This document shows, one piece after another, positions 1-28,915 of a stretch of DNA of 34,812 nt; the first letter of the stretch is position 1, and every line of letters starts with the position of its first letter. The notes beneath the pieces were generated by a model. That model was not told the DNA's origin and ran no database searches. It saw only the letters and a program-made list of their open reading frames with translations. The stretch comes from a virus. The DNA is taken from IMG/VR virus record IMGVR_UViG_3300028654_000043, positions 1 through 34,812 of that record. One strand, written 5' to 3'. The position numbers were made by a program, and so were the translations under genes.

Positions 1-2487
1 TCTAATACAGAAACCATCATAAATGCTCCTCGTGCCGAAATTTTGACCTATACTATCAACATCTCTACGGCTACACCAACCCCAAATCTATTACCAATAG
101 CAGCGGTATTGACAGATTCTGGTAATAATGTTCTAAGTGTTGAAGATATCAGATGGATGCTTTGTGGATTGGGAACTGGCGGATTAACCCCTGATCCCAC
201 CTATACCTATCCGTGGACACAAGGTAGAACCCCAGGACCGACTACAGCTTCGGCGCTTGGCGTAGACCCCTTTAGTGGTGGCGACAAAAGTATTGGCTCT
301 TTAAAAGAACTTCTCAATGCTATCATGAGTGAAATTAAACTCATGAAGGGCACGCCATACTGGAGTTCCTATGTCAGTGGCTCTGGTTCATTAATTCATT
401 TGAGAGAAGATCTTGGTAATACTGTTATCACCGGCAGTGGAAATATTTCTCATGGTATCTTGCCAAATGCCATTCCGCTTCTAACTACGACTGGCAATAC
501 GATTTACGCCAATAATCAACTCACTAATGTTCCCTCTGTAGTGGGACTATCAAACGGCGATTATATAATCGGATTTGGTATAGCACCCCTGTCAACGATT
601 GCTAGCATCGCAGGTTCTGGTCCGTACACTATAACGATGTCGGAAAACGCTACCGCTACCGCTACCGGCTCTACGGTTTCTTTTTATTCACCAAGCGTAG
701 TCACTTCTCCTGGACAGATCAACTGGAGCGAACCGATCAACTTACGTGTTATAGGTTCCTCGCTCGATTATGTAATTGCCGCCAATCCCACTTCAGCTGA
801 TGTTATTTTGGCCAATGATCAAGTGGCTTATATAACTTTAACAAGAGATGTTCCGGTAACGCCTAATTTGGTGTTTACCAATGCTTCGATGACAGTCACG
901 TCAGTTGGCTCTGTTCCTTGGACCACATCTTTGCTGGCAGGCGACTTTATCAGACTTGCCTCTGATACTGATGCTCATTATTATGAAATTGGAACTATCA
1001 ATAATTCTTACACCATTACGCTGACTGGTAATTTCACAGAAGCTTCTACCGGCCCCTCCGGTGTTCAAGCAGTGTATGCTTTTGGAAACTATTATGCTGC
1101 CGCACTGCCGTCCGTAGACCCGCGTGTGGTTCAGGTTTCTTCTAGAGAATCCGTCCCTTCTAGCGGAGACGTTTTTTGGTTATTCATTAGAGAGGACGAC
1201 GGTCTTCCGCAGGCAAAAGTTTATATACGAGTGCTGGGATCGGAATTAGCGTATGGAGAAAATGTTGATGTTGGTGATGGAATCTCCAATGAGTTACTCC
1301 AATATATCGGATCTCCATCTTTAAGCGCAGCATATCCGCAGTATGTCAATGCTTTAAATCCTGGTTCTGTTTCACAAATCACCCAAATCACAACTGGTCC
1401 TGGCTCTGGAATGACAGCTAGTCAGTATTTCCTTATTGATTCTTCTGCAGATGCCAGAACATACGAAATATATTGTGTGGTAAATGGCGTTGGAGTTCAA
1501 ACTACTTTAGGAAATGTAAACGAATATATTGCGTGGTCAGTACTTTCCACAGATACTGCGGCTCAAACTGCAACAAAACTTGCACTTGCCTTGGAAACTA
1601 CTGGAAATAGAGATTTTACAGCTACAGCTGCTAGCAATATAACTACTGTTACCAACAATTCTGCTGGTGCAACTACTGCACCAAACAACAGTACGATGTC
1701 TCCTGCGTTAACATTCAATATAACGCAAACTGGTACTGGATTGGGAAACTTCAATATTCAAGACGGCGACAGTCTTACGCTAGCTATCAAAGAATTGGAC
1801 AAGGCTATTGGCAATATTAACTTTTTTGTCAACTACAACTATGAAGAGCAAGTTACCGTTGTGTCTTCTGGAGCAACTCCACCTACTTCCATTACGGGAC
1901 CGATATCTCCTGGTACCGATATTACTTTGCCAAACAATACCAGAAATGGCGATGTAGCCCAGTATTATACGGTTAATTCAGCCAAATTAGAAGTATTCCT
2001 TAATGGTCAACTATTATTTATAAACGATGATTACGTGGAAGTTGGCGTAGCATATTCTACTAGTAATCAGATACAAACCCTGATTCCGTTAGTAGTCGGC
2101 GATGTTTTAGAATTTTGCATAGGCGCCACTGACGCTTCGGGTTCTCCCGGCCCCGTTGGCCCTCCGGGACCTGCCGGTCCTGCTGGTCCTCCAGGTCCAG
2201 GAAGTCCAGTAAATATCTCTACTAAAACTGCCAATTATACAGTTTTAACAACCGACAATGCTTTGTTGGCAAATTGTGCTAGCAATCCTATTACTTTCAC
2301 GTTGCCACCGGCAGCATCTGCTGTAGGGTATGTATTTTATTTCAAAAAGATAGATTCTACGGCCAATGCAATGATCATTCAAGCCTTTGGTGCAGAATTG
2401 ATTGATGGGTTGGGTTCTCAGACGAGAAATATTCAATGGGAATCGATTACTTTGTTAACAGACGGAACATCATGGTACATATTTTAA
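1..2487 (+). CDS. Tail fibre protein with collagen-like stretch, 5'-truncated by window edge
   Basis: Likely a structural tail-fibre or receptor-binding protein. The reading frame is open from base 1, so the gene begins outside the window; the in-frame TTG at 43 is probably not the true start. The visible part is Ser/Thr/Gly/Asn-rich, has no Walker or nuclease motif and looks beta-rich. Near the C-terminus (nt 2140-2208) lie about seven Gly-X-Y triplets (GSP GPV GPP GPA GPA GPP GPG), as in collagen-like phage fibres that trimerise. The last ~90 residues (NISTKTANYTVLTTDN start, SWYIF end) match the small C-terminal fold common in phage fibres, with its TFTLPPA and TLLTDGTSWY blocks. The next fibre gene starts 9 nt downstream after AGGTTAATT, a weak SD. 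The fibre role is well supported; the receptor is unknown. Confidence 0.8.
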   Translation, partial: SNTETIINAPRAEILTYTINISTATPTPNLLPIAAVLTDSGNNVLSVEDIRWMLCGLGTGGLTPDPTYTYPWTQGRTPGPTTASALGVDPFSGGDKSIGSLKELLNAIMSEIKLMKGTPYWSSYVSGSGSLIHLREDLGNTVITGSGNISHGILPNAIPLLTTTGNTIYANNQLTNVPSVVGLSNGDYIIGFGIAPLSTIASIAGSGPYTITMSENATATATGSTVSFYSPSVVTSPGQINWSEPINLRVIGSSLDYVIAANPTSADVILANDQVAYITLTRDVPVTPNLVFTNASMTVTSVGSVPWTTSLLAGDFIRLASDTDAHYYEIGTINNSYTITLTGNFTEASTGPSGVQAVYAFGNYYAAALPSVDPRVVQVSSRESVPSSGDVFWLFIREDDGLPQAKVYIRVLGSELAYGENVDVGDGISNELLQYIGSPSLSAAYPQYVNALNPGSVSQITQITTGPGSGMTASQYFLIDSSADARTYEIYCVVNGVGVQTTLGNVNEYIAWSVLSTDTAAQTATKLALALETTGNRDFTATAASNITTVTNNSAGATTAPNNSTMSPALTFNITQTGTGLGNFNIQDGDSLTLAIKELDKAIGNINFFVNYNYEEQVTVVSSGATPPTSITGPISPGTDITLPNNTRNGDVAQYYTVNSAKLEVFLNGQLLFINDDYVEVGVAYSTSNQIQTLIPLVVGDVLEFCIGATDASGSPGPVGPPGPAGPAGPPGPGSPVNISTKTANYTVLTTDNALLANCASNPITFTLPPAASAVGYVFYFKKIDSTANAMIIQAFGAELIDGLGSQTRNIQWESITLLTDGTSWYIF
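2140..2208 (+). repeat. Collagen-like Gly-X-Y coding repeat
   Basis: Seven consecutive Gly-X-Y triplets, rich in Pro and Ala, sit between the long beta-rich shaft and the ~90-residue C-terminal domain of the first fibre. The codons vary (ggt, ggc, gga; cct, ccc, cca, ccg), so this is a protein-level repeat, not a simple DNA slippage tract. Such stretches form triple helices in phage fibres and would hold three chains together next to the tip domain. Confidence 0.8.
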
Positions 2488-2496
2488 AGGTTAATT

Positions 2497-4983
2497 ATGT
2501 CGTATAATCCAAATTCAGCCATATTTGTAAATGATGTTTTGTCAGTTGTCGCCGCTACGGGCAATCAAAATACCTCATTGGCAATTTCTTCAGATTTTGA
2601 ACGAATACTGTTGAACGGAGCTACGGATGATGGTGTTTCTGCACTGCAAGTAAACGGCAACTTAGCATTCCAAGGCACCGGGCTGATTGGCACCGCTCCT
2701 TCTACGGATAATACGTCAATATCTCAAGCTAATTTAGTTTTCTACGATACTTATGGTGTTGGGGGCATTGTTGATGGCACCTACTTTGCTATAACCTTTC
2801 ATTCTGGTGTTCAGGGTGGAGCTAATGCTGGATTAACCTATACTGCAATTTATTATTTAGCAGATCAAGTATTGCATCTAACGACGCCCACAACCTATCC
2901 GGTTGCTGCTGGCGATCAATATTCTGTGACGGGAACCGGGTATTCCGGAAGCAACGGAAAGGTTGGAAGAGATGAAACTAATCATTACTATAACTTCTTC
3001 TATGTTGCAAGCATTCCTGCGGGATTGGTAAATGGTGAGAGTGTTTCATACACTATCACTAGTGGTCCCAATACTGGAGATAGTGCTATTGGCACTTTCT
3101 ACATTTTACCCGGCCCTGTTTATGAAATAGGTGGCCCAGTAACTACTGGGCAGTTTTCCACTCTAATGAGTAATGGGGACACCTTCACTATTACTGGTGG
3201 AGTTTCCGCCACTAGCATGGATATTGTTAACCGATTGCTTTATGCAAGTGATGGTATTACGACAGCGCTTAATTGGAGTACTCCAGGAACTATTTTAATA
3301 AACAACTTACAGGTCACTGGGAACGCATCCCTTCTTGGTCGAACCCTCTTAGGAGGAGCAACAGACGATGGATCAAGCGTCTTACAGTTAAATGGAAATT
3401 TAGTATTTCAATCGGGTCTTATCGTTACAGGTGGAGGCGTAGCAAACACTTCAATTAACTATACGGGCCAGATTGTAATGTGTCAATCTCTAACAGGTTT
3501 GGGATCTAGAACTATCACATTTACAAGCGGCGCCAATAATGGATTTTCTAGTACAGCAACTGGCTATAGTTGTTCTTTGCCAACATGTATTGTGTATTAT
3601 TTAGATAATCAACCTCCTTTTGTACCTGCAATTAACGATACATATACTAGAAGTGGCGACTTAACGACTTACATTGTTGGTCAAGATACGGGTGGAAATT
3701 GGTATTACCCATATATTTTAGGCGCGCAGCCACCTGGATGGACTGACGGCACTTCGGAAAATGCTACATTTACCAACGGCAGTGAAGTTGGAATTTCCTT
3801 TAATATAAATTTTGATGTTTTAACTTCAGGAATCTATGCCGGTATGATTCAGGTGCCACACGGTACTTCACCTAATCCCGCCGGAACATCTACAGAATTT
3901 AATGGCGGCGGCGGAACAGAGTCTATAGATACGATAAATCGTTTATTAATAGCTAATAATGGTGCCACAACCAATTTAGATTGGTCAAATCCAGGAAGAG
4001 TTCTAATCGCCGGTGCCACAGATGATGGTAGTTCCGCTTTGCAGGTTAACGGAAACTTATCACTGCAGGGATCTGGTTTTGTTATAGACAATACTAATGA
4101 TTTTAATAGTATAGATCCCACAAATCGCTTACTAATTGCCAATGACGGCTCTACAACCAACTTAGATTGGGCAAATCCCGGAAGAGTCTTGATTAATGGC
4201 GCCACAGATGATAGCGTTTCTGCACTGCAGGTAAACGGTGCAATTAACGTTGGAAATGGAAATCAATTTATCAATGCTGACGGTAGCATTGGTATAGGAG
4301 CGGTAAATTCTAATCCCGCCTCTTCAAACAATTTGGTTATCGGAAACGGTAGTACTTTAGGTTCTACTTCCTCAAATACAGTAATTGTTGGTCCCAATAT
4401 AATCCTATCGCCGGGCAATAATAATATGACGGTCATCGGATCGAATATTACGACGAACGATGATAATTCAGTTCTCATCGGCCATGCACTTACTGGAGGT
4501 TATGAAGCTGTCAACATAGGAGTCTTTAACAATGCTAATTCAGATAGCGTTGCTGTTGGTTCTGGATTAAATGTTGGATATTTAGGTATCGGAATCGGAA
4601 CTGCAAACATTGTTTCTCAGCAAAGTATCGGAATTGGTAACGAAATTACGATTGGTAATCAGTATTCTTGCGTAATGGGAATAGGTATTTATCCGACCAT
4701 TCTCACCGATGTTAATGCGCCAGGAGGTTGGACGTTTGGTGGAGTAAATTCTACCCTGTTGACTGGTGAAAACTGGCTAATGATAAATCCAGGAACTGCC
4801 GCAAATACGCCTAGGGTTATAATCGGAAGTACCGTAACTGATGATAACTCTTCAGCATTACAAGTTTATGGCGGCATTCGCCTTGCAGACTATACTACAA
4901 TTTCTACGCCTGTTGAGGGACAGTTGGCGTATAATTATACTACCCATGTAACCACTTACTACAACGGAACGGCGTGGGTATAA
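2497..4983 (+). CDS. Modular tail fibre with repeated GATDDxxSALQVNG units and YadA-like repeats
   Basis: A predicted 828-residue tail fibre. A motif GATDDGxSALQVNGNL recurs at about residues 41, 287, 506 and 568, with a diverged copy (STVTDDNSSALQVYG) at 777. Several copies are preceded by an NRLLxAxDGxTTxLxW block, giving a 62-residue unit in the third and fourth copies. Residues ~600-740 contain many short repeats (VIGNGST, VLIGHAL, SVAVGSG, GIGIGTAN, SIGIGNEI), which resemble the left-handed beta-roll of YadA-type adhesin heads. The C-terminus (EGQLAYNYTTHVTTYYNGTAWV) is a typical phage fibre end, often before a chaperone or tip domain. The start ATG is 9 nt after the previous fibre stop; the next gene follows after an AAGGAG site. 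It probably forms part of a host-range appendage. Repeat recombination could vary its length. Confidence 0.8.
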   Translation: MSYNPNSAIFVNDVLSVVAATGNQNTSLAISSDFERILLNGATDDGVSALQVNGNLAFQGTGLIGTAPSTDNTSISQANLVFYDTYGVGGIVDGTYFAITFHSGVQGGANAGLTYTAIYYLADQVLHLTTPTTYPVAAGDQYSVTGTGYSGSNGKVGRDETNHYYNFFYVASIPAGLVNGESVSYTITSGPNTGDSAIGTFYILPGPVYEIGGPVTTGQFSTLMSNGDTFTITGGVSATSMDIVNRLLYASDGITTALNWSTPGTILINNLQVTGNASLLGRTLLGGATDDGSSVLQLNGNLVFQSGLIVTGGGVANTSINYTGQIVMCQSLTGLGSRTITFTSGANNGFSSTATGYSCSLPTCIVYYLDNQPPFVPAINDTYTRSGDLTTYIVGQDTGGNWYYPYILGAQPPGWTDGTSENATFTNGSEVGISFNINFDVLTSGIYAGMIQVPHGTSPNPAGTSTEFNGGGGTESIDTINRLLIANNGATTNLDWSNPGRVLIAGATDDGSSALQVNGNLSLQGSGFVIDNTNDFNSIDPTNRLLIANDGSTTNLDWANPGRVLINGATDDSVSALQVNGAINVGNGNQFINADGSIGIGAVNSNPASSNNLVIGNGSTLGSTSSNTVIVGPNIILSPGNNNMTVIGSNITTNDDNSVLIGHALTGGYEAVNIGVFNNANSDSVAVGSGLNVGYLGIGIGTANIVSQQSIGIGNEITIGNQYSCVMGIGIYPTILTDVNAPGGWTFGGVNSTLLTGENWLMINPGTAANTPRVIIGSTVTDDNSSALQVYGGIRLADYTTISTPVEGQLAYNYTTHVTTYYNGTAWV
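3937..4257 (+). repeat. Tandem 186-nt fibre module (two copies)
   Basis: Two direct copies lie 186 nt apart: NRLL at 3937 and 4123, GATDD at 4012 and 4198. The DNA is similar between copies, including the shared run TTAGATTGG and near-identical GCCACAGATGATxG stretches. A more diverged related block starts at 3229. The spacing is an exact multiple of three, so unequal crossover would add or remove 62 residues without breaking the frame. Confidence 0.75.
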
Positions 4984-4992
4984 GGAGAAACA

Positions 4993-5259
4993 ATGACGAC
5001 AAGGACAATGAAACTAGCAGTAGGTACAACAACCCAATGCCGTCCTACTTTTTTGGACCAAAACAGTAGGCCGATGTATCCAGTTCCTACGGGCACTACA
5101 TATACTTCTAGTACTCCTACTATAGCAACGATAGATACTAATGGTAGGCTGACAGCGGTTGCTGCGGGGACAACTGTTATCACGGCAACTAATGGTAGTC
5201 TAACCGCTACATTGAATGTAACGGTATATACTCCGGCGCTCACAGCAATGACTATGTAA
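4993..5259 (+). CDS. Small Ig-like (BIG2) domain protein
   Basis: An 88-residue protein that is almost entirely one bacterial Ig-like group 2 (BIG2) domain. It shows the pattern TTYTSSTPTIATIDTNGRLTA followed by AAGTTVITATNGSLTATLNVTV, where the S-x-P-x-I-A-x-I-D-x-x-G-x-L-T-A and G-x-x-x-I-T-A blocks are typical. There is no signal peptide or membrane segment. Ig-like domains on phage particles usually decorate capsids, tails or fibres and bind carbohydrate weakly; here the position between fibre genes suggests an accessory of the adhesion apparatus. The start ATG follows AAGGAGAAACA, a strong SD. The fold call is secure; the virion location is inferred. Confidence 0.8.
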   Translation: MTTRTMKLAVGTTTQCRPTFLDQNSRPMYPVPTGTTYTSSTPTIATIDTNGRLTAVAAGTTVITATNGSLTATLNVTVYTPALTAMTM

Positions 5260-5263
5260 CTAA

Positions 5264-5282
5264 TATGATATAATACATCATA
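5264..5282 (+). promoter_or_regulatory. Candidate extended -10 promoter within a dyad
   Basis: The gap between the Ig-like gene and the 56-residue gene holds TGATATAAT (5266-5274), a perfect extended -10 (TGnTATAAT). No convincing -35 lies 16-18 nt upstream. The site sits inside an inverted repeat, TATGAT (5264-5269) and ATCATA (5277-5282), which could be an operator or simply a coincidence of AT-rich DNA. Initiation about 7 nt past the -10 would leave a very short leader containing the AGGAG of the next gene. The same nonamer occurs in front of a minus-strand gene at 29575-29583. Confidence 0.4.
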
Positions 5283-5292
5283 GGAGAAACAT

Positions 5293-5463
5293 ATGAAATA
5301 CACTATTACAAAAGATCAATTAGTTAAAGTTTTACAATTTCTTTCGGGAAAGCCATGGCAGGAAGTTCATCCTCTAATACAGGAATTGTCTAACTTGCCA
5401 CTGTATAAAGAAGCTAAACCTACAGAGGCTCCATCGGAAGAAACTAAGCCTACGGAAAAATAA
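5293..5463 (+). CDS. Small 56-residue hypothetical protein between fibre genes
   Basis: A short reading frame from ATG at 5293 to TAA at 5461-5463, preceded by AGGAGAAACAT. The product (MKYTITKDQLVKV at the start, TKPTEK at the end) has a helical N-terminal half (KDQLVKVLQFL) and a Lys/Glu/Pro/Thr-rich tail with the repeated motif KPTE(A/K). The next fibre gene starts 1 nt after the stop (TAATATG), which implies translational coupling. No family is recognised. Strong SD, tight packing and the candidate promoter just upstream support it as a real gene. It might be a fibre chaperone or minor structural protein, but nothing in the sequence shows this. Confidence 0.65.
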   Translation: MKYTITKDQLVKVLQFLSGKPWQEVHPLIQELSNLPLYKEAKPTEAPSEETKPTEK

Positions 5464-5464
5464 T

Positions 5465-7243
5465 ATGGCCAATTTCTTGGATATCAGACAGTCAATATAC
5501 AGACCAACGCCTGCAATGATAGGTACTGGTGTGGGCGGCGCAGCCGTTGACACCTTATTGGGTAGTATTGACTCTGAAATCCAAAAACTTTTCGAGGATC
5601 GCAACGCTATCATGACAGATGGCGGTGTCATTAGTTTAAGCACCAATGGACAAACACTGAGTTTTACCGAAGATGTTAATTTGGTATTAAATTCAACGGC
5701 TGCTGGCGGCAATGCTATATCTCTTAATCTGGGATCTGGAAACGTAGCTTCATTGCTCACCGGATATCTATGGTATGCTGTAGTTAATAGAACTGCACCC
5801 TCGGTAACAACCAATATCGCTTCTGGTACTATTGGGTTGCCAGCCACTACTTATGCCAATCAAGAAGTGTTCCTTTTGGCTGTTAGATTGGATTCTGCAG
5901 ATGGTACTAAAACCGTATATTTGCGTGGCGGAACTACTATCGTTGCAGGCCAATCAGTTAGACTCGGCAGTTCTTCTGGACTTGACAATTTCTTTTCTAT
6001 TGGTAATGCTTCCGATCCCACTAAACAGATTAAGTTTAGTACTGGAAGTGCTGTAACTGGTACCACCTTAACATTAGCTTCTCAGGCCCTTGTTAATCAA
6101 ACATTTTTCTTTCCTCAAACCAGTGGCACGGATTATTTAGTATCAAATACATCTACTTCCCTATTAACCAATAAAACGTTAGGATTTTTGCAAACTAGTA
6201 GCTTGACAGACCCCACTGTTTATGGTGCTGATGCTACATTACAGGCTGCCGATATAACTGTTGGGTTTGTTTCTCTCACTGGGGTTACTGGAACTACCAG
6301 CATAGCAGCTATTCCGGCTGGGGCTGCTGGCCAAGTTCTTACGGTTGAAAACCAAACCGCCAACACCATAACTGTTATAAACAATTACGGTGGTGCAAAT
6401 AAGCCTATTTATACTGGTACCGGCGGTACCGTAACGATGACCCCTTATTCTTCCCTCACATTTATCTATAATACCGCGCTTTCTGCGTGGTCAATAACTG
6501 GAGGAATCACCGGTTCGGTTTATGCCGTAGGCGCATTTGGCAGTACACCAAATGCTAATGGTGCGAGCATTTTAAATGGTGTCTTGACCCTACAGCCAGC
6601 TTCGAATACGCAACCCGGCGGTATTTCTACTACTACTCAATCATTTCTTGGAGATAAAACTTTTTTTGGTACAGTAGAAATAGTGGTAGGTGGCAATGCT
6701 AGCATATTTACTGTAAATTCTGTAAATGTAACAGGAATTTCTACTAATGCATTACAATTGGGCGGTACCGGCGAAGCAAAAATAGCCACATTGGGTCCCA
6801 CCACTATGGCTATTCAGAATCCTGGTAGCGGAAGTTATACCACTATTGTGGGAGGACCCGTAAACCAGACTCAGCCGCTCGTTACGATTAGGGGTACGAT
6901 TAATCTTGTTTATACCAATACCGGTGCTACCGATGCGGGAGCAAGCACCGTACACGGAACTGGCTTTACTATCCATAGTGGTCTTTTTAATTATACTGCT
7001 TTAGGTATAGCTTTCGATGTGCCATTTGCAAGTCAACCTACTATTGTTTGTACTATACAAGTACTAAGCCCCTCAACGCCTGCATCGCAAAATAACGACC
7101 TTTACTATACTAGCAGTGGCACTCTTGGTGGAACAACCGATGCGGCTTATGGCGGCGTCAATGGTTTTCTCACGGCGGTATTCGGTGCTGGTTCTAATGT
7201 GTATGTAATTGACTTTATAGCGATTGGACCAGCTGCATATTAA
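5465..7243 (+). CDS. Third tail fibre / appendage protein
   Basis: A 592-residue predicted fibre protein, Gly/Thr/Ser/Ala-rich with long beta-prone stretches. The N-terminus (MANFLDIRQSIYRPTPAMIG, then a short helix around SIDSEIQKLFEDRNAI) could be the attachment or trimerisation part. The middle has a TNKTLGFLQ block that recurs in many phage fibres. The last ~100 residues form a separate beta-rich domain ending IDFIAIGPAAY. There is no catalytic motif. It starts 1 nt after the upstream small gene. Its stop TAA (7241-7243) is part of a TTAA whose other strand is the stop of the convergent minus-strand gene, so the fibre transcription unit ends here. Role by composition and position; host receptor unknown. 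Confidence 0.75.
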   Translation: MANFLDIRQSIYRPTPAMIGTGVGGAAVDTLLGSIDSEIQKLFEDRNAIMTDGGVISLSTNGQTLSFTEDVNLVLNSTAAGGNAISLNLGSGNVASLLTGYLWYAVVNRTAPSVTTNIASGTIGLPATTYANQEVFLLAVRLDSADGTKTVYLRGGTTIVAGQSVRLGSSSGLDNFFSIGNASDPTKQIKFSTGSAVTGTTLTLASQALVNQTFFFPQTSGTDYLVSNTSTSLLTNKTLGFLQTSSLTDPTVYGADATLQAADITVGFVSLTGVTGTTSIAAIPAGAAGQVLTVENQTANTITVINNYGGANKPIYTGTGGTVTMTPYSSLTFIYNTALSAWSITGGITGSVYAVGAFGSTPNANGASILNGVLTLQPASNTQPGGISTTTQSFLGDKTFFGTVEIVVGGNASIFTVNSVNVTGISTNALQLGGTGEAKIATLGPTTMAIQNPGSGSYTTIVGGPVNQTQPLVTIRGTINLVYTNTGATDAGASTVHGTGFTIHSGLFNYTALGIAFDVPFASQPTIVCTIQVLSPSTPASQNNDLYYTSSGTLGGTTDAAYGGVNGFLTAVFGAGSNVYVIDFIAIGPAAY

Positions 7244-9539: not shown

Positions 9540-10139
9540 CTATACTCCTAAAATCTTATCTGCTAATCCTAATCTAACCGACTCTTGAGCAGTAAGAAAA
9601 GTGTCATGGGCTAGTAACTTTTGTAATTCTACCAGAGTGTAATTGGGATGTTTAGCCTGTATTTTACTTAAATACAACTTTTCCATCCACTTATCTATAC
9701 GCTTGCTTTCATCTGCGTATTTGTAAGCTATTTTTGCATGATTGTCGAGATTCAAGGTACCATAGTGAATTAATTGAACGGCATTTGGGGCCATAACACG
9801 TTTGCTTGCAGCCTGCAAGATAACAGACCCCATAGAAGCTGCATTGCCAAAAACCTTGATCGTTACGGTAGCCTTGCAAGCCTTAACGGCATCATATATG
9901 GCCAGCCCATGATTAACATCCCCACCAATATTATTCATTACGATAGTTATTGGATCTTTAGATACGGATTCTAGAATAGTGATATTTTTAAGAAAACTCT
10001 CAGCCATTAAACCGTCTGTGCCATTTTCGCCACCATCATCGCTATAGTGTTCTGAGCCCATATAAATAGTACGAGCTGATGCGTACAGATTATAATCATG
10101 AAAACGATCAACCTCTTCCTTTACAAATCTTCTGGACAT
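9540..10139 (-). CDS. clpP: ClpP-like serine protease (S14)
   Basis: A 199-residue protein with a full ClpP fold signature and catalytic triad: Ser102 in GNAASMGSV, His125 in QLIHYG, and Asp179 in HDTFLTAQES, at spacings close to E. coli ClpP (97/122/171). The block GGDVNHGLAIYD matches the PGG-x-V-x-x-GLAIYD segment, and GLADKI matches the C-terminal G-L-(V/A)-D. The N-terminus (MSRRFVKEEVDRFHDY) is not an obvious ClpP propeptide. Phages use ClpP-like enzymes as prohead proteases or as true Clp-type peptidases; no capsid genes lie nearby, so the latter or a modulatory role is plausible. The ATG follows AAGGGGGCAAA and overlaps the end of the upstream HNH gene by 19 nt. The downstream CYTH gene follows by 1 nt. 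Confidence 0.85.
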   Translation of the reverse strand: MSRRFVKEEVDRFHDYNLYASARTIYMGSEHYSDDGGENGTDGLMAESFLKNITILESVSKDPITIVMNNIGGDVNHGLAIYDAVKACKATVTIKVFGNAASMGSVILQAASKRVMAPNAVQLIHYGTLNLDNHAKIAYKYADESKRIDKWMEKLYLSKIQAKHPNYTLVELQKLLAHDTFLTAQESVRLGLADKILGV

Positions 10140-10714
10140 TTTGCCCCCTTTTTAAAATTATCTAACATCCAGAGGGGTTGCATATTGGTGTAATGACAAG
10201 ATTTTAAAAATTGTTTTCTATCAGATAAATCAAACGACACAAGAGGCATAATATGATCTATATTCCATTTATTTTTACCAAAACCATAGTTTTCCCATGT
10301 CATGCCTGGTTGAAACTTAGATTCTAAATAATTTTTAAATTCATTTATAGTGCAACCCAAATCTTTCACTGCTGAACCGGCTTTTGAACCTCTTTTTATG
10401 GCTGTTACGAGTCTTCTTCTTAAATTAGAAGCTAATCTAGCATTTAAATTATTTTTCAAAAAAACAATACTTTTATCGTTTATACTTTTTTTATTATCTT
10501 GATAATATTGTCTTTTATATTCCCTTATGCTTTCCTTATTTTTCTGAGCATATGCTCGATCTCTTTTGGCAAAAACCTCCTTATTGTTTTTTCTTTGTTC
10601 AGCAGCGTATTGTTTTTTCTTATCTGAATTTTCTACATAGTAATTGGCATAATAAACCCTAAGTTTATTGGCATTTTTTATAGCCCATTCTTTTTTATAA
10701 GATGCTGAAGACAC
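10121..10714 (-). CDS. HNH homing endonuclease
   Basis: A 197-residue HNH nuclease, probably a free-standing homing endonuclease. The catalytic module is at the C-terminus: NIDHIMPLVSF, with the DH metal/general-base pair, then CHYTNMQPLWMLDNFKKG, the conserved N-x-Q-P-L-W-x-x-x-N-x-x-K signature of phage HNH enzymes. The N-terminal ~100 residues are very Lys/Arg/Tyr/Asn-rich with repeated Q-Y/Y-Y patterns, likely a DNA-binding extension. The start is GTG overlapping the stop of the primase gene (TAGTG), with AAGGAAAG upstream. It overlaps the ClpP-like start by 19 nt. The gene is inserted between primase and protease without breaking either. Confidence 0.85.
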   Translation of the reverse strand: MSSASYKKEWAIKNANKLRVYYANYYVENSDKKKQYAAEQRKNNKEVFAKRDRAYAQKNKESIREYKRQYYQDNKKSINDKSIVFLKNNLNARLASNLRRRLVTAIKRGSKAGSAVKDLGCTINEFKNYLESKFQPGMTWENYGFGKNKWNIDHIMPLVSFDLSDRKQFLKSCHYTNMQPLWMLDNFKKGAKCPEDL

Positions 10715-13676: not shown

Positions 13677-14238
13677 CGTCAAAACCTAAAAATTTATCCA
13701 TTTCAGGATCAGTATTGTCTATCACAGTGGGCTCATCGGTAACTCTACTGGGATCAAAAACCTTTGTAAATAGTGTTTCTACTTCCGTTTTAACTGGTTC
13801 TGATATGTCTGCTTTATCCATCTCAGATTCTAGTTCATTTTCTATTTTTTCCTGTAAAGATGGAACCTTAGATTCTTCTACAATTTTTTCTGGCTCATTT
13901 TTGCGATATTCGCTATCGGTACCAAAGACAGAGTATATGGCCCTGTCCAAATCTTTAAATCCGCAGGACATTATAGTATTGTAAGTTTTTTTAGACTTAT
14001 AGGAAGTTTTTGCACCGGCAGAAGCTTTAACTATCTTATCTCTTGTAGGGCCATTTTTGAAATTATCTTTTTCTGCTCCAAGATCTTTGAGAGTGTTCAG
14101 CAAAATAGTAAATAGTTCTTTTCTTTTTTTAAGATTGATTGTATGAGTTGTATAGCCTTTTTCGTTAGTGTAGTCTTCCCCATACTCCTCCACCCATTTA
14201 ATGAGTTCATCTTCTAGAAGTTGGGAAGATAATGACAT
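13669..14238 (-). CDS. Acidic hypothetical protein
   Basis: A 189-residue protein with a helical N-terminal domain (EDELIKWVEEYGEDY) followed by a Lys-rich segment and a strongly acidic, Ser/Thr/Pro-rich second half. It ends in FLGFDDE, an acidic tip with aromatics like those of single-strand binding proteins, which recruit partners through such tails. No family is recognised. The ATG overlaps the upstream stop by 1 nt (TAATG) and its end overlaps the helicase start by 8 nt. Position suggests a helicase loader or accessory protein, but this is inference from gene order only. Confidence 0.6.
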   Translation of the reverse strand: MSLSSQLLEDELIKWVEEYGEDYTNEKGYTTHTINLKKRKELFTILLNTLKDLGAEKDNFKNGPTRDKIVKASAGAKTSYKSKKTYNTIMSCGFKDLDRAIYSVFGTDSEYRKNEPEKIVEESKVPSLQEKIENELESEMDKADISEPVKTEVETLFTKVFDPSRVTDEPTVIDNTDPEMDKFLGFDDE

Positions 14239-15149
14239 TATTGCAATTCCTTTAAAAGTTTCCTCGCCGTCTTAATTTCTTCACGAAATGCCTTATTGTT
14301 CCTATTTGTTTTGATGAAGTTCCTGATAATGTTAACCTTAATTTCACATGGCTTATTTGTAAATTCTTTCTGACGTTGTTCCCACACCTGTCCGTCTTCA
14401 AATATAAAAAAAGCATCCTCTGGATTCATGTTATGGATATTATCATGAGGATTCATCCCAGCACCACTAAAATCGTCCATCTTGAGAGATTTCTGTTCTA
14501 ATGGCACCGCAACGTAATAGTTATCGTTGAAAAGGAAAGTAGATCCATAAAGAGTGCCGACCTTCTTTTTTATTGACTTGTAAACGGCGGTATCAAGCTT
14601 TCTAAATCCTAGTTTTTCATAGTTTTTGATGAGATCCCTCTTGATCTTTGGCGGCTTCTTGGGACCGTAGTAGTAATAGTACTCTTCTGAGGGCAATCCC
14701 TTAATGTTCCTAGCTTTTTGGCGACAAACCCTAACTACATCTTCCATTCTCTGCTTGAGAAATAGAGTTAGATTGGCCTGATTCTTATCCAACAAATCAA
14801 CTTCATCTGGAACCCTATTCTGTAGTCCCTTGAACTTGTTAATAAAATCATTATATTTTTCTGGCATCTTATCCAAAGAATAAAGTCCAAGAAAACTGAC
14901 CAAATGTACATTGGCTATATTTATAATATCTTCCACTTCAAATCCGACCATGTTGAATAGGTTTTTATAAACAGAATATGTATTCTTAGCCATATAAGAA
15001 GCTATCGGCATGAACGGTTTCATTTCTTCCAAGGTAGGATTATACTTAACCCTTCTAAAGTATTGATGTCTTAGATAGCATAATTCAAATTGATCTTTAG
15101 AGTGTATCTTCTTTTTTTCTGCTTCAGGTCTAATCACTTCAGCTTGCAT
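14238..15149 (-). CDS. Possible sigma-factor-like protein
   Basis: A 303-residue basic protein. Residues ~48-92 (FMPIASYMAKNTYSVYKN, then GFEVEDIINIANVHLVSFLGLYSL) resemble sigma-70 region 2, where a helix is followed by G-x-x-x-x-D-(L/I)-I-x-x-(G/A)-x-x-x-L. The rest has a Tyr-rich patch (YYYYYGPKKPPKIKRD) and a C-terminal helix-rich end (FREEIKTARKLLKELQ) without a clear region-4 helix-turn-helix. If it is a sigma factor it would steer host RNA polymerase to phage promoters, as T4 gp55 does for late genes. The similarity is short and I cannot test it, so this is tentative. The ATG follows AGGAACCTACC and lies directly downstream of a structured RNA element. Confidence 0.4.
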   Translation of the reverse strand: MQAEVIRPEAEKKKIHSKDQFELCYLRHQYFRRVKYNPTLEEMKPFMPIASYMAKNTYSVYKNLFNMVGFEVEDIINIANVHLVSFLGLYSLDKMPEKYNDFINKFKGLQNRVPDEVDLLDKNQANLTLFLKQRMEDVVRVCRQKARNIKGLPSEEYYYYYGPKKPPKIKRDLIKNYEKLGFRKLDTAVYKSIKKKVGTLYGSTFLFNDNYYVAVPLEQKSLKMDDFSGAGMNPHDNIHNMNPEDAFFIFEDGQVWEQRQKEFTNKPCEIKVNIIRNFIKTNRNNKAFREEIKTARKLLKELQ

Positions 15150-15165
15150 GGTAGGTTCCTATATT

Positions 15166-15351
15166 TTTTGGCGAGTTAGTCGCTACTCTAACCGGGGCTG
15201 TGACGGCTATTCGCCTTCGGCGTCCCTAAACGCGATATCACAGTGCGTGTCTCCAGTGACCGAATAGTGTCTCTTCTAGCCAACATAACATCTATCCTTA
15301 CGTTGGTTTATGGAAGAGGAAGTCACAGCGATTCCCACGCCGTCGCCAAAA
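15166..15351 (-). ncRNA. Structured ~186-nt intergenic RNA, family unknown
   Basis: The only long non-coding gap in the minus-strand block folds into a branched RNA. Numbering from 15351 as base 1: closing helix TTTTGGCGA (1-9) with TCGCCAAAA (178-186); GCTGTGAC (23-30) with GTCACAGC (148-155); CTCTTC (34-39) with GAAGAG (76-81); CCAACGTAA (46-54) with TTATGTTGG (64-72); CTATTCG (85-91) with CGAATAG (139-145); GTCAC (92-96) with GTGAT (111-115); GCGT (119-122) with ACGC (129-132); GTTAG (160-164) with CTAAC (173-177). Two helices need G-U pairs only available on the minus strand, which sets the strand. GC is about 51% by hand count, richer than the surrounding DNA. It starts 4 nt after a stop codon and ends 16 nt before the sigma-like ATG, so it may be a leader element or a processed trans-acting RNA. 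Confidence 0.75.
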
Positions 15352-15355
15352 CCTT

Positions 15356-15643
15356 TTAAAGCTTTTTGAAAAAATTCAACAGCTTAGTATACCAAGGGGT
15401 ATACGGGGCTGGCTTGAGGTTAAAATTTTCAAGTTTGATATACGCATCGTCAAATTTGGTATTAAAATCATTAACTTCTGAAATGCCAGGCACGCAAGAT
15501 TCACCAGAATTGTAAATTCCCGCTACAAACCCAGTGGATGCATCGGGCTTATACGGCACTGTCGTTACGTCTCCAGTCTTGAGCTTCCTCTTAAGAACCT
15601 TCTTAGATTTGCCTTTTCCTTTTCCGTTATACTTCTTTGCCAT
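15356..15643 (-). CDS. Small hypothetical protein with basic N-terminus
   Basis: A 95-residue protein. The first ~25 residues are strongly basic and Gly/Lys-rich (KKYNGKGKGKSKKVLKRKLK), suggesting nucleic-acid contact. The rest contains TGFVAGIYNSGESCVPG and an aromatic, Pro-rich end (PYTPWYTKLLNFFKKL). There is no known domain. The ATG follows AAGGAGTAAAT, an SD formed by the last codons of the upstream recombinase gene. The structured RNA begins 4 nt after the stop codon, so this gene and the RNA probably share a transcript. The basic tail next to an RNA element invites the idea of an RNA partner; that is speculation. Confidence 0.6.
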   Translation of the reverse strand: MAKKYNGKGKGKSKKVLKRKLKTGDVTTVPYKPDASTGFVAGIYNSGESCVPGISEVNDFNTKFDDAYIKLENFNLKPAPYTPWYTKLLNFFKKL

Positions 15644-15645
15644 AT

Positions 15646-16692
15646 TTACTCCTTATCGTCCAACTTACGGACTTCTTCTAAAATTGCCTTGTAAAGTTCT
15701 GGATTATCTCGAATTGCTAGGGCACATTCCTTCTTGCCATTGAAAGACTGTCCACCAAAATTGTAGGTACGATTATTTGGGGTGTTTATCACTCCGGTAT
15801 TCTTACCAAGCCAGAAAACTTCTTCATGTTGATTAATGATACCATGATCGTAAGACAAAGTAAATACTCCAGCACGACCAGAGGGGCCGATAGAAGATTC
15901 TTCCATCTTAACGTAAATTTTGTGGCCATTTAGCAATTTATTGCCCCTTGCATCAGTTGCATCATCTTCAAAAGTTTTACCTTCAAGATTTGCCTTATCC
16001 TCTGCTGCTCCAGCCTTTTTTAGCGAGATAAAATATTCAAAAGCATGACGTACAGCAAAACTAGCTTGCATTTTAGTCTTAGGGCCATATTGACCGGCAT
16101 CAAAATTGGCCCGCATTTGAGCTGTTCCAATAAGCAGGATCTTATTCCTTTTGCAAAAAGGGACCAATTTAGAAAATCCAGCTTGCAAAGTAAGGGCTGA
16201 ATCTCCCATAAGATGATTGGCAACTGAATCTGCGTCTTTACGCTTATTACCCTGTACGTTAGTGATAGAATCAATAACTATCATTCTAAGAGGCATTCCA
16301 TCTTGGACCAATGCTTTGATAGAATTTTCTACTCGGTCAAAAATTTCTACGGGATCAGAAGTGTCATAAATAACAAGACGTTCTTTGTCAACGCCAGTAA
16401 ATACTGGACTGAAGCTGCCCCTAATCTCTGTATTAAAATAAATAGCAATTCCTTCCGGATCTCGCTTGTGCATTTCGCCAATAAGACTATAGCAAGATAG
16501 ACTTTTCCCAGCCTTAGGTTCACTAAAAAACAAAACAGAAGCATTCTTTGGAATTCCATGACTACTATTAGAAAAAATCCAATTAAAATAGGGACTTGGC
16601 GTGTAAAGACAATTTTCAGGTGCAAACGGATCATATTTAAAATCTACTGCATCGTCATACGCTTTCAATTCTTTCATCCATTTATTGGCCAT
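15646..16692 (-). CDS. uvsX: RecA/UvsX-like recombinase
   Basis: A 348-residue strand-exchange protein of the RecA/UvsX family. The start at ATG 16692 (MANKWMKEL) is preferred because TTAGGAGAAAAA precedes it; an ATG 18 nt earlier would overlap that SD. Walker A is SEPKAGKS, with Ser in place of the first Gly, and Walker B is MIVIDSITNVQG. The segment ILLIGTAQMRANFDAGQYGPKTK matches the DNA-binding L2/motif 3 region of UvsX. In T4-like replication UvsX loads on ssDNA with a mediator and drives recombination-dependent replication. Here the 169-residue gene and the SSB gene directly upstream fit that pathway. It lies 2 nt from the next small gene. Confidence 0.85.
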   Translation of the reverse strand: MANKWMKELKAYDDAVDFKYDPFAPENCLYTPSPYFNWIFSNSSHGIPKNASVLFFSEPKAGKSLSCYSLIGEMHKRDPEGIAIYFNTEIRGSFSPVFTGVDKERLVIYDTSDPVEIFDRVENSIKALVQDGMPLRMIVIDSITNVQGNKRKDADSVANHLMGDSALTLQAGFSKLVPFCKRNKILLIGTAQMRANFDAGQYGPKTKMQASFAVRHAFEYFISLKKAGAAEDKANLEGKTFEDDATDARGNKLLNGHKIYVKMEESSIGPSGRAGVFTLSYDHGIINQHEEVFWLGKNTGVINTPNNRTYNFGGQSFNGKKECALAIRDNPELYKAILEEVRKLDDKE

Positions 16693-16709
16693 TTTTTCTC
16701 CTAAAATCA

Positions 16710-17219
16710 TTAATATAGATTTGTTCCAGAAAGTCCACTTCTGATAATTAAATCCATTCTTTTTTTCATGTAAGCACAGACACGTTCCATAACCTTAACC
16801 TTGCCATCGAAATTGCTTTCCAGTGCCTTAAGTTGTGCAATTCTATCTAATGCTGCACAATATTCTTCATCTCTAATCATGAAAGCCTTTCTTAGGTCTG
16901 CGTTGTCTTGCGTTTTAGGCTTATCTTTCATAAATTCTGGATACTTATCCAATAGAACATTTGCTTTTGCCTGTTCTAAAGCCTTCTCTGCCATCATTAA
17001 ATTGTATCCAATAGATGATAAGTATCTTTTTAAGTCTCTGTATGCTTCATTATAACAATGCTCCAAGTCAGAGTAAGTAGAGGGATTTACAGTTTTAGCT
17101 TCAATAAGCCTACTCTCTGCAAATCTAACATTGGACATATCCATTTTTAATGCGGGAGATCCCCCAAAAGGGGGAATCTCCAGGATATGATTGCTTGGTA
17201 ATGTAACGTTTTCGCTCAT
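16710..17219 (-). CDS. Helical hypothetical protein between SSB and UvsX
   Basis: A 169-residue protein, mostly alpha-helical. An antiparallel coiled coil is likely from NPSTYSDLEHCYNEAY through MMAEKALEQAKANVLLDKY and again from LDRIAQLKALESNFDGKVKVM. The N-terminus (LEIPPFGGSPALKMDMSN) is extended. The ATG directly abuts the SSB stop, so it is translationally coupled to SSB, and UvsX follows after 17 nt. This order and a small helical product match what would be expected of a recombination mediator (UvsY analogue). However, I see no sequence motif of UvsY, so the function is inferred from position only. Confidence 0.6.
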   Translation of the reverse strand: MSENVTLPSNHILEIPPFGGSPALKMDMSNVRFAESRLIEAKTVNPSTYSDLEHCYNEAYRDLKRYLSSIGYNLMMAEKALEQAKANVLLDKYPEFMKDKPKTQDNADLRKAFMIRDEEYCAALDRIAQLKALESNFDGKVKVMERVCAYMKKRMDLIIRSGLSGTNLY

Positions 17220-19343: not shown

Positions 19344-19736
19344 TTACGTATTGGTACGTATAAATTTTTTTATTATTTTCAAAAATTCCGATATACTGTA
19401 GTCTTTTTTAAGGAAATTGCAAATATAGCAGCACGGTAAACAATTATCTTTTTCGTATCCCAAATTATTATTTGCTCTATCTATTCCATTCATCTTTGCG
19501 GTGGCCCTATCTACGGTTACTTGAAGTCGATCTTTATGTTCGTGTTTTCGTTTGCCGGTGGCGTCCAAATACATATTGCTAATTTTTGGTTTTGCATTAC
19601 AATAATAACAATTTAGACTTACTATATCAACAAACTCTTCTTTAGTTAAACGAAATGTTCTTCCCATTCTCTTAGCATTTATTTTGTATCTATCGAAATT
19701 TCTCTTGTAAGTTACATATCCTTGTTCTTTTTTCAT
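19344..19736 (-). CDS. HNH endonuclease, CYYCNA-type
   Basis: A 130-residue HNH-type nuclease. It has CYYCNAKP and then NGIDRANNNLGYEKDNCLPCCYICNFLKK, where the paired Cys-x-x-Cys units bind zinc and the N-G-I-D-R block is the active-site strand. The N-terminal part (YKRNFDRYKINAKRMGRTFRLTKEEF) is basic and helical. The same C-terminal module occurs in the 232-residue gene at 20488-21186, so the two are paralogues flanking a protease gene. The ATG abuts the protease stop with no SD, so translation likely relies on re-initiation. It probably acts as a mobile homing nuclease. Confidence 0.8.
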   Translation of the reverse strand: MKKEQGYVTYKRNFDRYKINAKRMGRTFRLTKEEFVDIVSLNCYYCNAKPKISNMYLDATGKRKHEHKDRLQVTVDRATAKMNGIDRANNNLGYEKDNCLPCCYICNFLKKDYSISEFLKIIKKFIRTNT

Positions 19737-20495
19737 TTATTTTAATATATCACATTTGTTTTCATTTTGAAATAAAATTTTACCAGTGGCTACGGCAGTA
19801 CTTTGTGAAGTGCCGCTAGCCTGTAAACCAAATCCAATTACTTTTTCTCCAATCTCCCAACGACTTATGACTCTTCCATAATTAGAGACTCTGGCTACGG
19901 TACCGTCCCTGTTCAGCATTCCAACGGAAATCACCCTAGGATCATATGAAGATGGGTAGTGTCTGCGAAAAGGAAAGTCTAAATCTAATCCCTCGTTACC
20001 TGCGGCTGTAACAAAGGTACCACCACGGTCCAAAAAGCTAATCACAGCGATTCTTTCCTCTAAAGAAGGCGTATAACCGCCAGCGCTATAATTGATATAT
20101 TTGGCTCCTATAGAAGTGGCGTAATTGATTGCATCTATAGTACTTCTCAGGGTATCTCTACTTCTATCTTTTCTGTAAAATTTCAGTACAACGATGCAAT
20201 AGTTAATACCATGTGTATAATTATCTATAACTCCCACAATATTTGTACCATGACCAATGGTGTCCAGGGGAATCAGATCTTGCGTATGGTATGTGTTAGT
20301 GAAGATATTCTCTCCAGAATAATCTCGATGACCAGTTTGACACAATTTAGCGTCCAAACCCCTATCATCAAAACCAAAACCTGTATCTATCACTGCTACC
20401 TTGACAGGGTTACATTGTGCGTATAATATATTTAAATTTAAAACAACAAATAATAATGCAATTAACCGTGTTATATCTTTTGTTTTTTTAACCAT
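19737..20495 (-). CDS. Secreted subtilisin-like serine protease (S8), no propeptide
   Basis: A 252-residue subtilase with a complete catalytic set: Asp37 in VAVIDTGFG, His82 in GHGTNIVGV, oxyanion Asn167 in TAAGNEG, and Ser230 in SGTSQSTAVATG. The N-terminus (MVKKTKDITRLIALLFVVLN) is a signal peptide, basic then hydrophobic, with likely cleavage after LYA26. The catalytic domain starts almost at once, leaving no room for an I9 inhibitor propeptide, which is unusual. It has no SD; the ATG overlaps the end of the upstream HNH gene by 8 nt and sits in an A-rich run. Related HNH genes flank it on both sides, so it looks like cargo of a mobile cassette. The substrate is unknown; it could act on host envelope proteins or in the periplasm. 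Confidence 0.85.
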   Translation of the reverse strand: MVKKTKDITRLIALLFVVLNLNILYAQCNPVKVAVIDTGFGFDDRGLDAKLCQTGHRDYSGENIFTNTYHTQDLIPLDTIGHGTNIVGVIDNYTHGINYCIVVLKFYRKDRSRDTLRSTIDAINYATSIGAKYINYSAGGYTPSLEERIAVISFLDRGGTFVTAAGNEGLDLDFPFRRHYPSSYDPRVISVGMLNRDGTVARVSNYGRVISRWEIGEKVIGFGLQASGTSQSTAVATGKILFQNENKCDILK

Positions 20496-21186
20496 TTTTA
20501 TTTTTATATATAGTGTTGATTTTATTTAAAAATTCTTCTTCATCTATATCTTGTTTCATAAAGTTGCATGGAGCACAGCAAGGAACACATCTATTTAATT
20601 CATAATTATCAGAATTATTTTTTCTATCTATACCATTTACTAAAATTTTACGATCTATAGGAATATTATCTATTTTTTCTTGAGAAGTCAACGGTATTCG
20701 GACTGGAGATGCGTTGCAATAGTAGCAATTTTTAGAGATCAATATTTTAAATTGTTTAAAAGTTAACTTGAATTTCAAATTTCTCTTCTTGGCAGCATAT
20801 TTGTACATTTTATATCTAGCCCTATACTGATTTTTCTCTAAATTTTTTCTACGTAAACAGCCACAGGAATTTATGTTCATAGACATCAATACATCATATC
20901 TTACCGGCCTTTCGGCACCACACCTACATTTACAGTTATAAAATGTTATTTTATCTCCTCTTCCCGCATAAGATATTACTGTTAGTAGTCCTATTTTTCT
21001 ACCTATCATAGATTCACGTATAGTATTGGTTTTATTAATTTTTAGATATCTATCCATACGTTTATTGATAGAATCTAAACTCCTTTTGAGCTTTATGGCC
21101 ATTTCTTTGCGAGTCATGATCGTAAAATTATCTTTTAAAAATTGATCTTGCTCTTCTGACCATGGATTTTTTATACGTCCGTCCAT
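20488..21186 (-). CDS. HNH endonuclease with HTH and zinc-finger N-terminus
   Basis: A 232-residue homing-type nuclease in three parts. An N-terminal helix-turn-helix (WSEEQDQFLKDNF, then TRKEMAIKLKRSLDSINKRM) resembles the SANT/Myb-like DNA-binding modules of homing enzymes. A Cys-rich segment (CKCRCGAERPV and NSCGCLRRK) should bind zinc. The C-terminal HNH unit has CYYCNASP and NGIDRKNNSDNY...RCVPCCAPCNFMK. The last unit is shared with the smaller nuclease at 19344-19736. The ATG follows GGAAGGATAAT, provided by the end of the DnaE gene, 1 nt after its stop. It overlaps the subtilase start by 8 nt. Confidence 0.85.
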   Translation of the reverse strand: MDGRIKNPWSEEQDQFLKDNFTIMTRKEMAIKLKRSLDSINKRMDRYLKINKTNTIRESMIGRKIGLLTVISYAGRGDKITFYNCKCRCGAERPVRYDVLMSMNINSCGCLRRKNLEKNQYRARYKMYKYAAKKRNLKFKLTFKQFKILISKNCYYCNASPVRIPLTSQEKIDNIPIDRKILVNGIDRKNNSDNYELNRCVPCCAPCNFMKQDIDEEEFLNKINTIYKNKNG

Positions 21187-27738: not shown

Positions 27739-28482
27739 CTAAAGCGTGATCAGCTTCCCCTCAATCAGGCAAGTTCCTTTGATGATAGGAACTGGAATCA
27801 CATAAACGATACCAGTGGCCGTATCTAGATAGCCGATACCAAAACCCAAACTCCAGTCTTTCATGGCTTTAACCCTATGCATATAATCGATTTCTTCAAC
27901 ATCTCCGAGCCAGCCAAACATAGCTGAAACGTGTCTGTCACCATTCGCATTGCCTTCGACCATATATCCGATGCGATGGGTGTGACCGATAAGAACATTA
28001 TGCTGAAACGTATCTAATGCTTTTTGGTGTGCGACTCTTCCACAATTACCAGCATCATGGGTAATATTGAGTTTTCCGATCTTATATGCCTGCTTGTAAG
28101 GAACATACTTAAAGCCCTTTTCTTTCAATTCCAGAATCTTAGGAATAGAAATAAAATCAAACAGTTCCGGGGCACGATCTTGAAGATATCTAAGCAGGCG
28201 ATCTTCATGGTTTCCAGCGATGAATACATTATTTTTGGCACCAAGAGACTTGATTTGATCGAGAGCGGTCTTGGTAGATTCCACTTCTTCCTTAAGTTTT
28301 AAAGACCTATCGGGCGATTTGGAATGGCTGGAAACTCCATAAAAATCTGCGAAATCTCCCATTATAACAGTATGATGTGGTTTAAATTGTTTAGCCGCCT
28401 TTAACATCAAATTCCAGGCATTCAGGTCTACATATGGATGATGACAATCGGGAATGAACAGGATTTTTTCAAGTTTAGACAT
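27739..28482 (-). CDS. Calcineurin-like metallophosphoesterase
   Basis: A 247-residue phosphoesterase with the full metal-binding series: PDCHHP (D12, H14), MGDFAD (D43), AGNHEDR (N91, H92), ITHDAG and IGHTHR. It could act on nucleic acid ends, cyclic nucleotides or phosphoproteins. The SbcD/Mre11-type partner of the phage SbcC would have a similar core, but those proteins are longer and carry a C-terminal capping domain that I do not see here. So a separate role is at least as likely. SD is TAGGAGTAAATACTG. The ATG lies 8 nt inside the end of the upstream HNH gene. The gap to the next gene holds 41 nt. Confidence 0.85.
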   Translation of the reverse strand: MSKLEKILFIPDCHHPYVDLNAWNLMLKAAKQFKPHHTVIMGDFADFYGVSSHSKSPDRSLKLKEEVESTKTALDQIKSLGAKNNVFIAGNHEDRLLRYLQDRAPELFDFISIPKILELKEKGFKYVPYKQAYKIGKLNITHDAGNCGRVAHQKALDTFQHNVLIGHTHRIGYMVEGNANGDRHVSAMFGWLGDVEEIDYMHRVKAMKDWSLGFGIGYLDTATGIVYVIPVPIIKGTCLIEGKLITL

Positions 28483-28915
28483 CAGTATTTACTCCTAGTA
28501 AGTTATAGATTTCTTTCTTAGCTTTCATCGCTTTTACCGAAGCAGATAGTCCACAATTTTGAGAGTTAGTGACCCATTCTACGTTGTCGAGGGTGTATCC
28601 TTTTTGAGAATTAATCCTATTTACCGTAGGGGTCATTTTCCTATCAAATTCACACATTACCCATCTTTTATACATTTGTAGAAAATCGGGATGATTTTTT
28701 GCCCAAGTGAGGAAGATATCCTTGGGCATTATAGGTTTTCCAATATAAAGATCGGGACGATTAGTATTGGCCCCGGTAGTTACGCGATTTTTCATTGCAC
28801 TATAAAGATTGTTTAAGAATCTACCTATTGTCACTTTTCTCTCATGACTAGAGCAATAAACATCTTTATTACGAACATTCTTACTACAATCTTTATATTT
28901 GCAATTCTTCCTCAT
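28475..28915 (-). CDS. HNH-like homing endonuclease
   Basis: A 146-residue nuclease-like protein. An N-terminal zinc-binding knuckle (CKYKDCSKN and YCSSHERK) is followed by a basic middle and a C-terminal block VNRINSQKGYTLDNVEWVTNSQNC. This block fits the N/D-R-I-(D/N)-x-x-x-G-Y-x-x-x-N-x-x-W-V-T-x-x-x-Q-N signature of small phage HNH homing enzymes. It sits between the GreA-like and phosphoesterase genes, with only 5 nt before it and an 8-nt overlap after it. The SD is poor, as for other mobile genes here. Confidence 0.75.
   Translation of the reverse strand: MRKNCKYKDCSKNVRNKDVYCSSHERKVTIGRFLNNLYSAMKNRVTTGANTNRPDLYIGKPIMPKDIFLTWAKNHPDFLQMYKRWVMCEFDRKMTPTVNRINSQKGYTLDNVEWVTNSQNCGLSASVKAMKAKKEIYNLLGVNTDV

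Follow-up and report, generated by a model that had tools for sequence, protein, structure and literature searches.

GOLLD is a phage and prophage RNA of unknown function, with many members over 800 nt and a linker that sometimes holds tRNAs (PMC12286853). ROOL is a phage RNA that forms an octameric cage (PMC12286853). These two are the nearest known kind to the RNA family described here, without homology to it, and their Rfam models gave no match to its elements. Like GOLLD, the present family is phage-encoded, of unknown function and composed of a conserved and a less conserved part, and where GOLLD has tRNAs in its linker, this family has tRNA-like hairpins in the domains that we term P3 and P4. 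In contrast to GOLLD, its elements measure only about 110–290 nt, with a four-helix scaffold, independently exchanged domains and no Rfam match; they also lie outside tRNA islands, with few tRNAs nearby, and did not turn up in our searches of cultured phages. With ROOL the family shares being a phage-encoded structured RNA without a known protein partner, but it is much smaller, and Rfam searches revealed no match in sequence or structure.

Other described RNAs resemble the family in part. Its compact junction fold, variable peripheral helices and scattered phage contexts recall the hammerhead, twister, pistol, hatchet and HDV-like ribozymes, but it matches no Rfam ribozyme family. Some P3 and P4 domains contain hairpins like the T-arm of tRNA and tmRNA (e.g. 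GUGGG-UUCGAGU-CCCAC), but two inspected elements had no anticodon arm and most copies are without a T-loop. ARAGORN and Rfam found no tRNA or tmRNA at the elements, save one weak sub-threshold tRNA-Sec-like hit, and a tRNA or tmRNA identity was rejected as neither program gave a complete cloverleaf or a tmRNA. For a phi29-type pRNA there was likewise no Rfam match, nor any fixed link to packaging genes. Across Rfam 15 (4,227 families, at gathering and relaxed thresholds), no match reached the gathering threshold for the window's element and 25 other loci, save one ordinary tRNA outside an element, and a search of 20 elements plus the window's with a cutoff of E ≤ 5 gave nothing relevant. A literature search, beyond whose reach lay most subscription journals, found no account of the RNA family.

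The locus and its RNA

The stretch of DNA analyzed (the window) is a complete IMG/VR record of 34,812 bp. A run of minus-strand genes extends over 7240–34812, and 15166–15351 is its sole sizeable gap, which bears out for this run what a first-pass annotation of the sequence had described as the only sizeable non-coding gap in an operon of about 27 kb. The closing helix P1 begins 4 nt past the stop codon of a 95-aa ORF, and 16 nt separate its end from the ATG of a 303-aa ORF; both spacings, and the 9-bp stem itself, were the same on re-checking the sequence. The GC content of the element was computed as 0.51, compared with 0.37 and 0.40 for the 5-kb stretches flanking it, agreeing with the earlier hand count of about 51%, above the flanks. 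A G-U pair in the 9-bp hairpin CCAACGTAA/TTATGTTGG, from which the orientation had been deduced, is permitted on the minus strand alone, and all flanking genes also lie on that strand. The features are as follows (P2 and the internal loop as in the family fold, see below).

15166–15351, minus strand: structured RNA element, matched at full length by covariance model R1 (15349–15168, 75.9 bits, E 8.7e-16)
15343–15351, minus strand: 5' strand of P1, TTTTGGCGA, paired with 15166–15174; P1 covaries at all 7 modelled pairs
15166–15174, minus strand: 3' strand of P1, TCGCCAAAA, paired with 15343–15351
15341–15342, minus strand: conserved P1–P2 linker CG (C in 96/105 and G in 98/105 elements)
15336–15340, minus strand: 5' strand of P2, GCGTG, paired with CACGC at 15245–15249
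15245–15249, minus strand: 3' strand of P2, CACGC, from the R1 match and comparative fold
15327–15335, minus strand: 5' side of the internal loop, GGAATCGCT (GRAAGCU in the family, with a 2-nt insertion in the window's copy)
15250–15255, minus strand: 3' side of the internal loop, TGGAGA, conserved
15322–15326, minus strand: 5' strand of the P3 base, GTGAC, paired with GTCAC at 15256–15260
15256–15260, minus strand: 3' strand of the P3 base, GTCAC, paired with 15322–15326
15261–15321, minus strand: exchangeable P3 domain, including the CCAACGTAA/TTATGTTGG hairpin
15193–15244, minus strand: exchangeable P4 domain
15175–15192, minus strand: P5 hairpin, GTTAG-AGTAGCGA-CTAAC, covarying at all 5 pairs
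15180–15187, minus strand: 8-nt loop of P5, AGUMGCGN, conserved in the family
15356–15643, minus strand: upstream 95-aa ORF, its stop codon 4 nt ahead of P1, without a family match
14238–15149, minus strand: downstream 303-aa ORF ("sigma-like" in the first-pass annotation), with conserved counterparts in related phages and no match in Pfam, PHROG or PDB
15646–16710, minus strand: UvsX/RecA-like recombinase, two genes upstream of the RNA (PHROG 97, E 3.6e-30)

Searches of Pfam, PHROG and PDB with the 303-aa protein gave no match, leaving its "sigma-like" label unproven.

The minimum free energy (MFE) of the minus strand was −62.1 kcal/mol (z = −2.7; 1/200 shuffles as good). The plus strand was as stable (z = −3.2), each strand surpassing chance to a moderate degree only, so folding energy by itself could not have settled the case; the comparative evidence does. 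The comparative fold of the window's sequence (−60.2) lies 1.9 kcal/mol above the MFE structure, from which P2 is missing. The "at least eight helices" described earlier are present in the MFE structure of this one sequence, but family-wide only P1, P2, P3 and P5 are found.

A covariance model of the family

Relatives of the locus were reached via the neighboring UvsX-like and 303-aa proteins. In seven distinct phages, the window's included, a non-coding element bearing the motifs CGTGGRAAGCTG ... CTGGAGACACG ... AGTMGCG occupies the same spacer. Two of these shared motifs served as a search pattern which, scanned across viral contigs, gave 58 loci, and about 50 of the 58 had two features absent from the pattern, a closing helix and a hairpin at the 3' end. 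Two variants of the pattern gave 39 additional hits.

Four helices (P1, P2, P3 and P5) emerged from an alignment of 44 elements, with 97.4% of cells paired against 74.9 in shuffled and 30–44 in slid controls. Double-sided changes numbered 207, fourfold the 51 ± 8.5 of shuffled alignments, and sliding the partners by 1–3 columns abolished the covariation signal. P1, P3 and P5 lie outside the search pattern. P2 lies inside it and was for that reason invariant in this alignment; later copies found independently of the pattern change P2 on both sides (AUAUG/CAUAU in L153, GAGUG/CACUC in L037). The strong conservation of the internal loop is likewise partly an effect of selection by the pattern, and copies found without it keep most of the loop; diverged copies, the window's among them, tolerate insertions and losses there.

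The covariance model R1 was built from these 44 elements with the window's clade excluded. It found the window's element at full length (75.9 bits, E 8.7e-16) and recovered six diverged members of the same clade. R1 also confirmed 37/37 new loci from the two pattern variants and rejected all six pattern hits that had been judged chance (best E = 1). In mutual information over 105 elements, the modelled pairs of P1, P3 and P5 were the strongest signals. The structured RNA, its family and its fold are real. The undescribed multi-helix RNA of the first-pass annotation is thus upheld by covariation, by independent detection with R1 and by the lack of an Rfam match: a conserved fold with covarying pairs runs across the relatives, and no Rfam family explains the element.

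One association outside the helices was seen in alignment A6, where the variable purine of the internal loop (R of GRAA, column 15) is linked with the base just 5' of P5 (column 404); this is a hint of a possible tertiary contact. A pairing of the P5 loop with the P1–P2 linker was considered and dropped, as no covariation links the variable base of the loop to the linker.

Distribution

With the window counted, the family comprises 102 elements in 82 records, of which 80 are viral and 2 are MAG contigs; whole-record searches gave 59 elements in 42/50 records and 42 in 39/39, besides the window's, and some records are near-duplicates. Copy number is usually one in small phages and reaches three in large ones, with some copies in tandem. 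BLAST queries against cultured phages (50,697 records) returned chance matches only, with no convincing copy, as did a BLAST search of plasmids with a relative's element.

The two MAG contigs were the only hits in cellular genomes. Since, among 101 genomes of the phylum to which the Dependentiae MAG belongs, no other has the element, these contigs are likely misbinned phage contigs, and a cellular origin was rejected on the same grounds. The carrier genomes are metagenomic fragments. The RNA family appears to be limited to phages for which metagenomes are the only source, and this may explain why Rfam does not cover it. To our knowledge, a new class of structured RNA that has about a hundred members and such covariation is seldom missed.

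Exchange of the P3 and P4 domains

From element to element, P3 and P4 differ entirely in both sequence and length, yet some of these domains are common to otherwise different elements. Among 22 pairs of elements with a common domain, 20 shared only P3 or only P4, and the two pairs that shared both were of near-identical elements. Exact matches reached 32 nt in P4 (L027/L198) and 26 nt in P3 (L178/L167), and a 22-mer of the P4 domain common to L027 and L198 occurred in viral_contigs solely inside three such elements. Single elements can have different partners for their two domains: L083 shares P3 with L104 and P4 with L107, L167 shares P3 with L178 and P4 with L070, and L067 shares P3 with L124 and P4 with L073 and L150. 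L069 and L084 agree in P1, P5 and core but have unrelated P3 and P4, and the genes downstream of the two have similar protein starts, as read by eye. The family is a mosaic in which the scaffold is constant and P3 and P4 are exchanged independently. That two domains are swapped between phages on one scaffold suggests an RNA tool that acts freely rather than the leader of a neighboring gene. Hairpins with a T-loop occurred in 13/75 elements against 1.5 ± 1.1 in shuffled sequences, about an eightfold excess, and most copies are without one.

Gene context

Outside the window's own clade the neighboring proteins showed no clustering, and a common downstream gene was seen in that clade only; no one gene family lies consistently downstream, as it would for a riboswitch or cis-leader. 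The annotations of the neighbors include replication, DNA polymerase, nucleotide metabolism, thymidylate synthase, terminase, tail and integrase. No protein family was common to all 29 sampled carriers at a BLAST threshold of E 1e-6, in incomplete genomes and with diverged small proteins able to escape; the commonest families (terminase, capsid and portal) were each present in 14–15 carriers. A dedicated phage protein partner was rejected on this basis.

A same-strand ORF stops within 60 nt of the element's start in 70/101 copies (control 25%), mostly at 2–20 nt. TTTT follows P1 within 12 nt in 41/104 copies against a background of 6%; the window's copy is without a U-rich stretch after P1. 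In relatives that retain the 303-aa gene, the RNA can be missing from its place, replaced by another structured-looking sequence or located elsewhere in the genome. Together, the unrelated neighbors, the starts close to stop codons, the TTTT and the relocation speak against a cis-leader and favor an RNA that acts independently. The first-pass annotation had offered a cis-leader of the sigma-like gene among its options, which we rejected, as the RNA adjoins unrelated genes in unrelated phages and several relatives have the same gene without a recognizable copy there. Another of its options, a replication RNA, gained no specific support.

Proposed function and alternative explanations

With the fold, the family, the mosaic exchange and the lack of a fixed neighbor established by computation, we infer the expression of the RNA, its release from operon transcripts, its binding of a host factor, the specificity of P3 and P4 and its purpose as follows. 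We think it rather probable that the elements make up a class of structured RNA, so far undescribed, which phages encode and which acts in trans, with a scaffold for a host factor and exchangeable specificity domains. The constant scaffold consists of P1, P2, the internal loop GRAAGCU/UGGAGA and the P5 hairpin with its loop AGUMGCGN, and P3 and P4 are two exchangeable domains mounted on it. As there is little room for a promoter of its own, the RNA is probably transcribed inside operon mRNAs. Its release, either through processing or through termination at the U-rich run that many copies have, would probably take place where A/U-rich sequence borders P1. The scaffold probably binds a host factor, because no phage protein accompanies the RNA. 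What the RNA engages would probably be set by P3 and P4, which are tRNA-like in some copies; these domains are probably swapped because hosts or their defences vary.

The sense orientation within operons is also compatible with a cis-acting intercistronic element that serves to insulate, stabilize or process the polycistronic mRNA or to adjust how the next gene is translated. Such an element would sit, as these do, between a stop and the next start and mostly in sense, and a ribosome-binding-site-like motif with a start codon is found within 40 nt in 50/104 copies. However, the neighbors are unrelated, a single copy in most small phages would be odd for a general mRNA element, and insulation needs no complex scaffold with independently exchanged domains; we consider this explanation unlikely. 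A self-cleaving or otherwise catalytic RNA, its core made of the internal loop and the P5 loop, would account for two highly conserved unpaired sites joined by P1/P2, and its variable peripheral domains and scattered gene contexts would be like those of known small ribozymes. The absence of a match to the Rfam ribozyme families, the insertions and losses in the internal loop of diverged copies, the window's included, and the flanks outside P1, in which no invariant cleavage-site sequence was seen, make catalysis doubtful, and to our minds less likely than a cis-acting role.

The scattered sites, the tandem copies and the closely related sequences in unrelated phages might instead point to a mobile or selfish element, small and RNA-encoding, that moves from one intergenic site to another. 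We hold this to be a little less likely still than catalysis: there is mostly one copy per genome, the common stretches are inner domains rather than whole elements with conserved ends, no enzyme is associated, and L069 and L084 hint that the same site is kept while only the domains change. A packaging or replication RNA, such as a pRNA-like molecule or an origin primer, would fit a phage-encoded RNA with about one copy per genome that lies among replication genes in the window, but no Rfam pRNA family matches and the position relative to packaging and replication genes varies, making this the explanation to which we give very little credence.

Returning to the trans-acting RNA, its swappable domains suggest a role of the host-targeting or antidefence kind. 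Counter-defence or host takeover would be the most likely purpose, although at less than even odds, because host-directed arms races yield exchangeable specificity parts without a fixed partner gene. More tentatively, and as a possibility rather than an expectation, the RNA may be a chassis, common to phages of many uncultured lineages, that docks on a conserved host factor and displays two interchangeable domains, and so an RNA-only modular device for counter-defence or host takeover. Its domains would then be exchanged by recombination, like phage tail-fibre modules, to neutralize or redirect host functions. We know of no close parallel for two domains being exchanged independently on one conserved RNA scaffold without an accompanying protein. 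What is new is the RNA family and its architecture, absent from Rfam and apparently undescribed, while the biological role is a proposal. Domain exchange on a conserved scaffold points to a selected, presumably host-directed function, and the family offers ready-made natural variants for testing.

Other sequences in the spacer and the window

The spacer upstream of the 303-aa gene holds, in related phages, other structured-looking non-coding sequences that R1 does not recognize (L006 7047–7250, L018 5849–5990, L028 5302–5800, L030 5563–6000, L047 5845–5960 and L048 5720–6000), and it looks like a hotspot for several RNA families. Possible diverged members of the present family were seen at L029 5789–5914, L041 5852–5986 and L020 5671–5824 and 5838–5976 (R1 with filters off, E 0.0009–0.006 within a few hundred bases); they keep the layout of P1 and often of P5, with the core lost or altered. 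The two L020 candidates are in tandem, one having a tRNA-like body that lacks an anticodon loop. The 17-mer GCTAAACAATCCGAGGC is identical at L017 5842 and L020 5724, in non-coding elements, and no other viral_contigs record has it.

The 303-aa gene is kept in dozens of environmental phages. As a single query in a direct protein search its product found nothing, an alignment of relatives being needed, and a distant match exists in Myxococcus phage Mx1 (30% over 150 aa). Four ORFs of the window (10121–10714, 19344–19736, 20488–21186 and 28475–28915), dispersed across its replication operon, look by eye like free-standing HNH or endonuclease-VII-like genes. Three long ORFs on the opposite strand (43–7243) are tail- or fibre-like, and one of them has a collagen-like GPPGPAGPAGPPGPG stretch.
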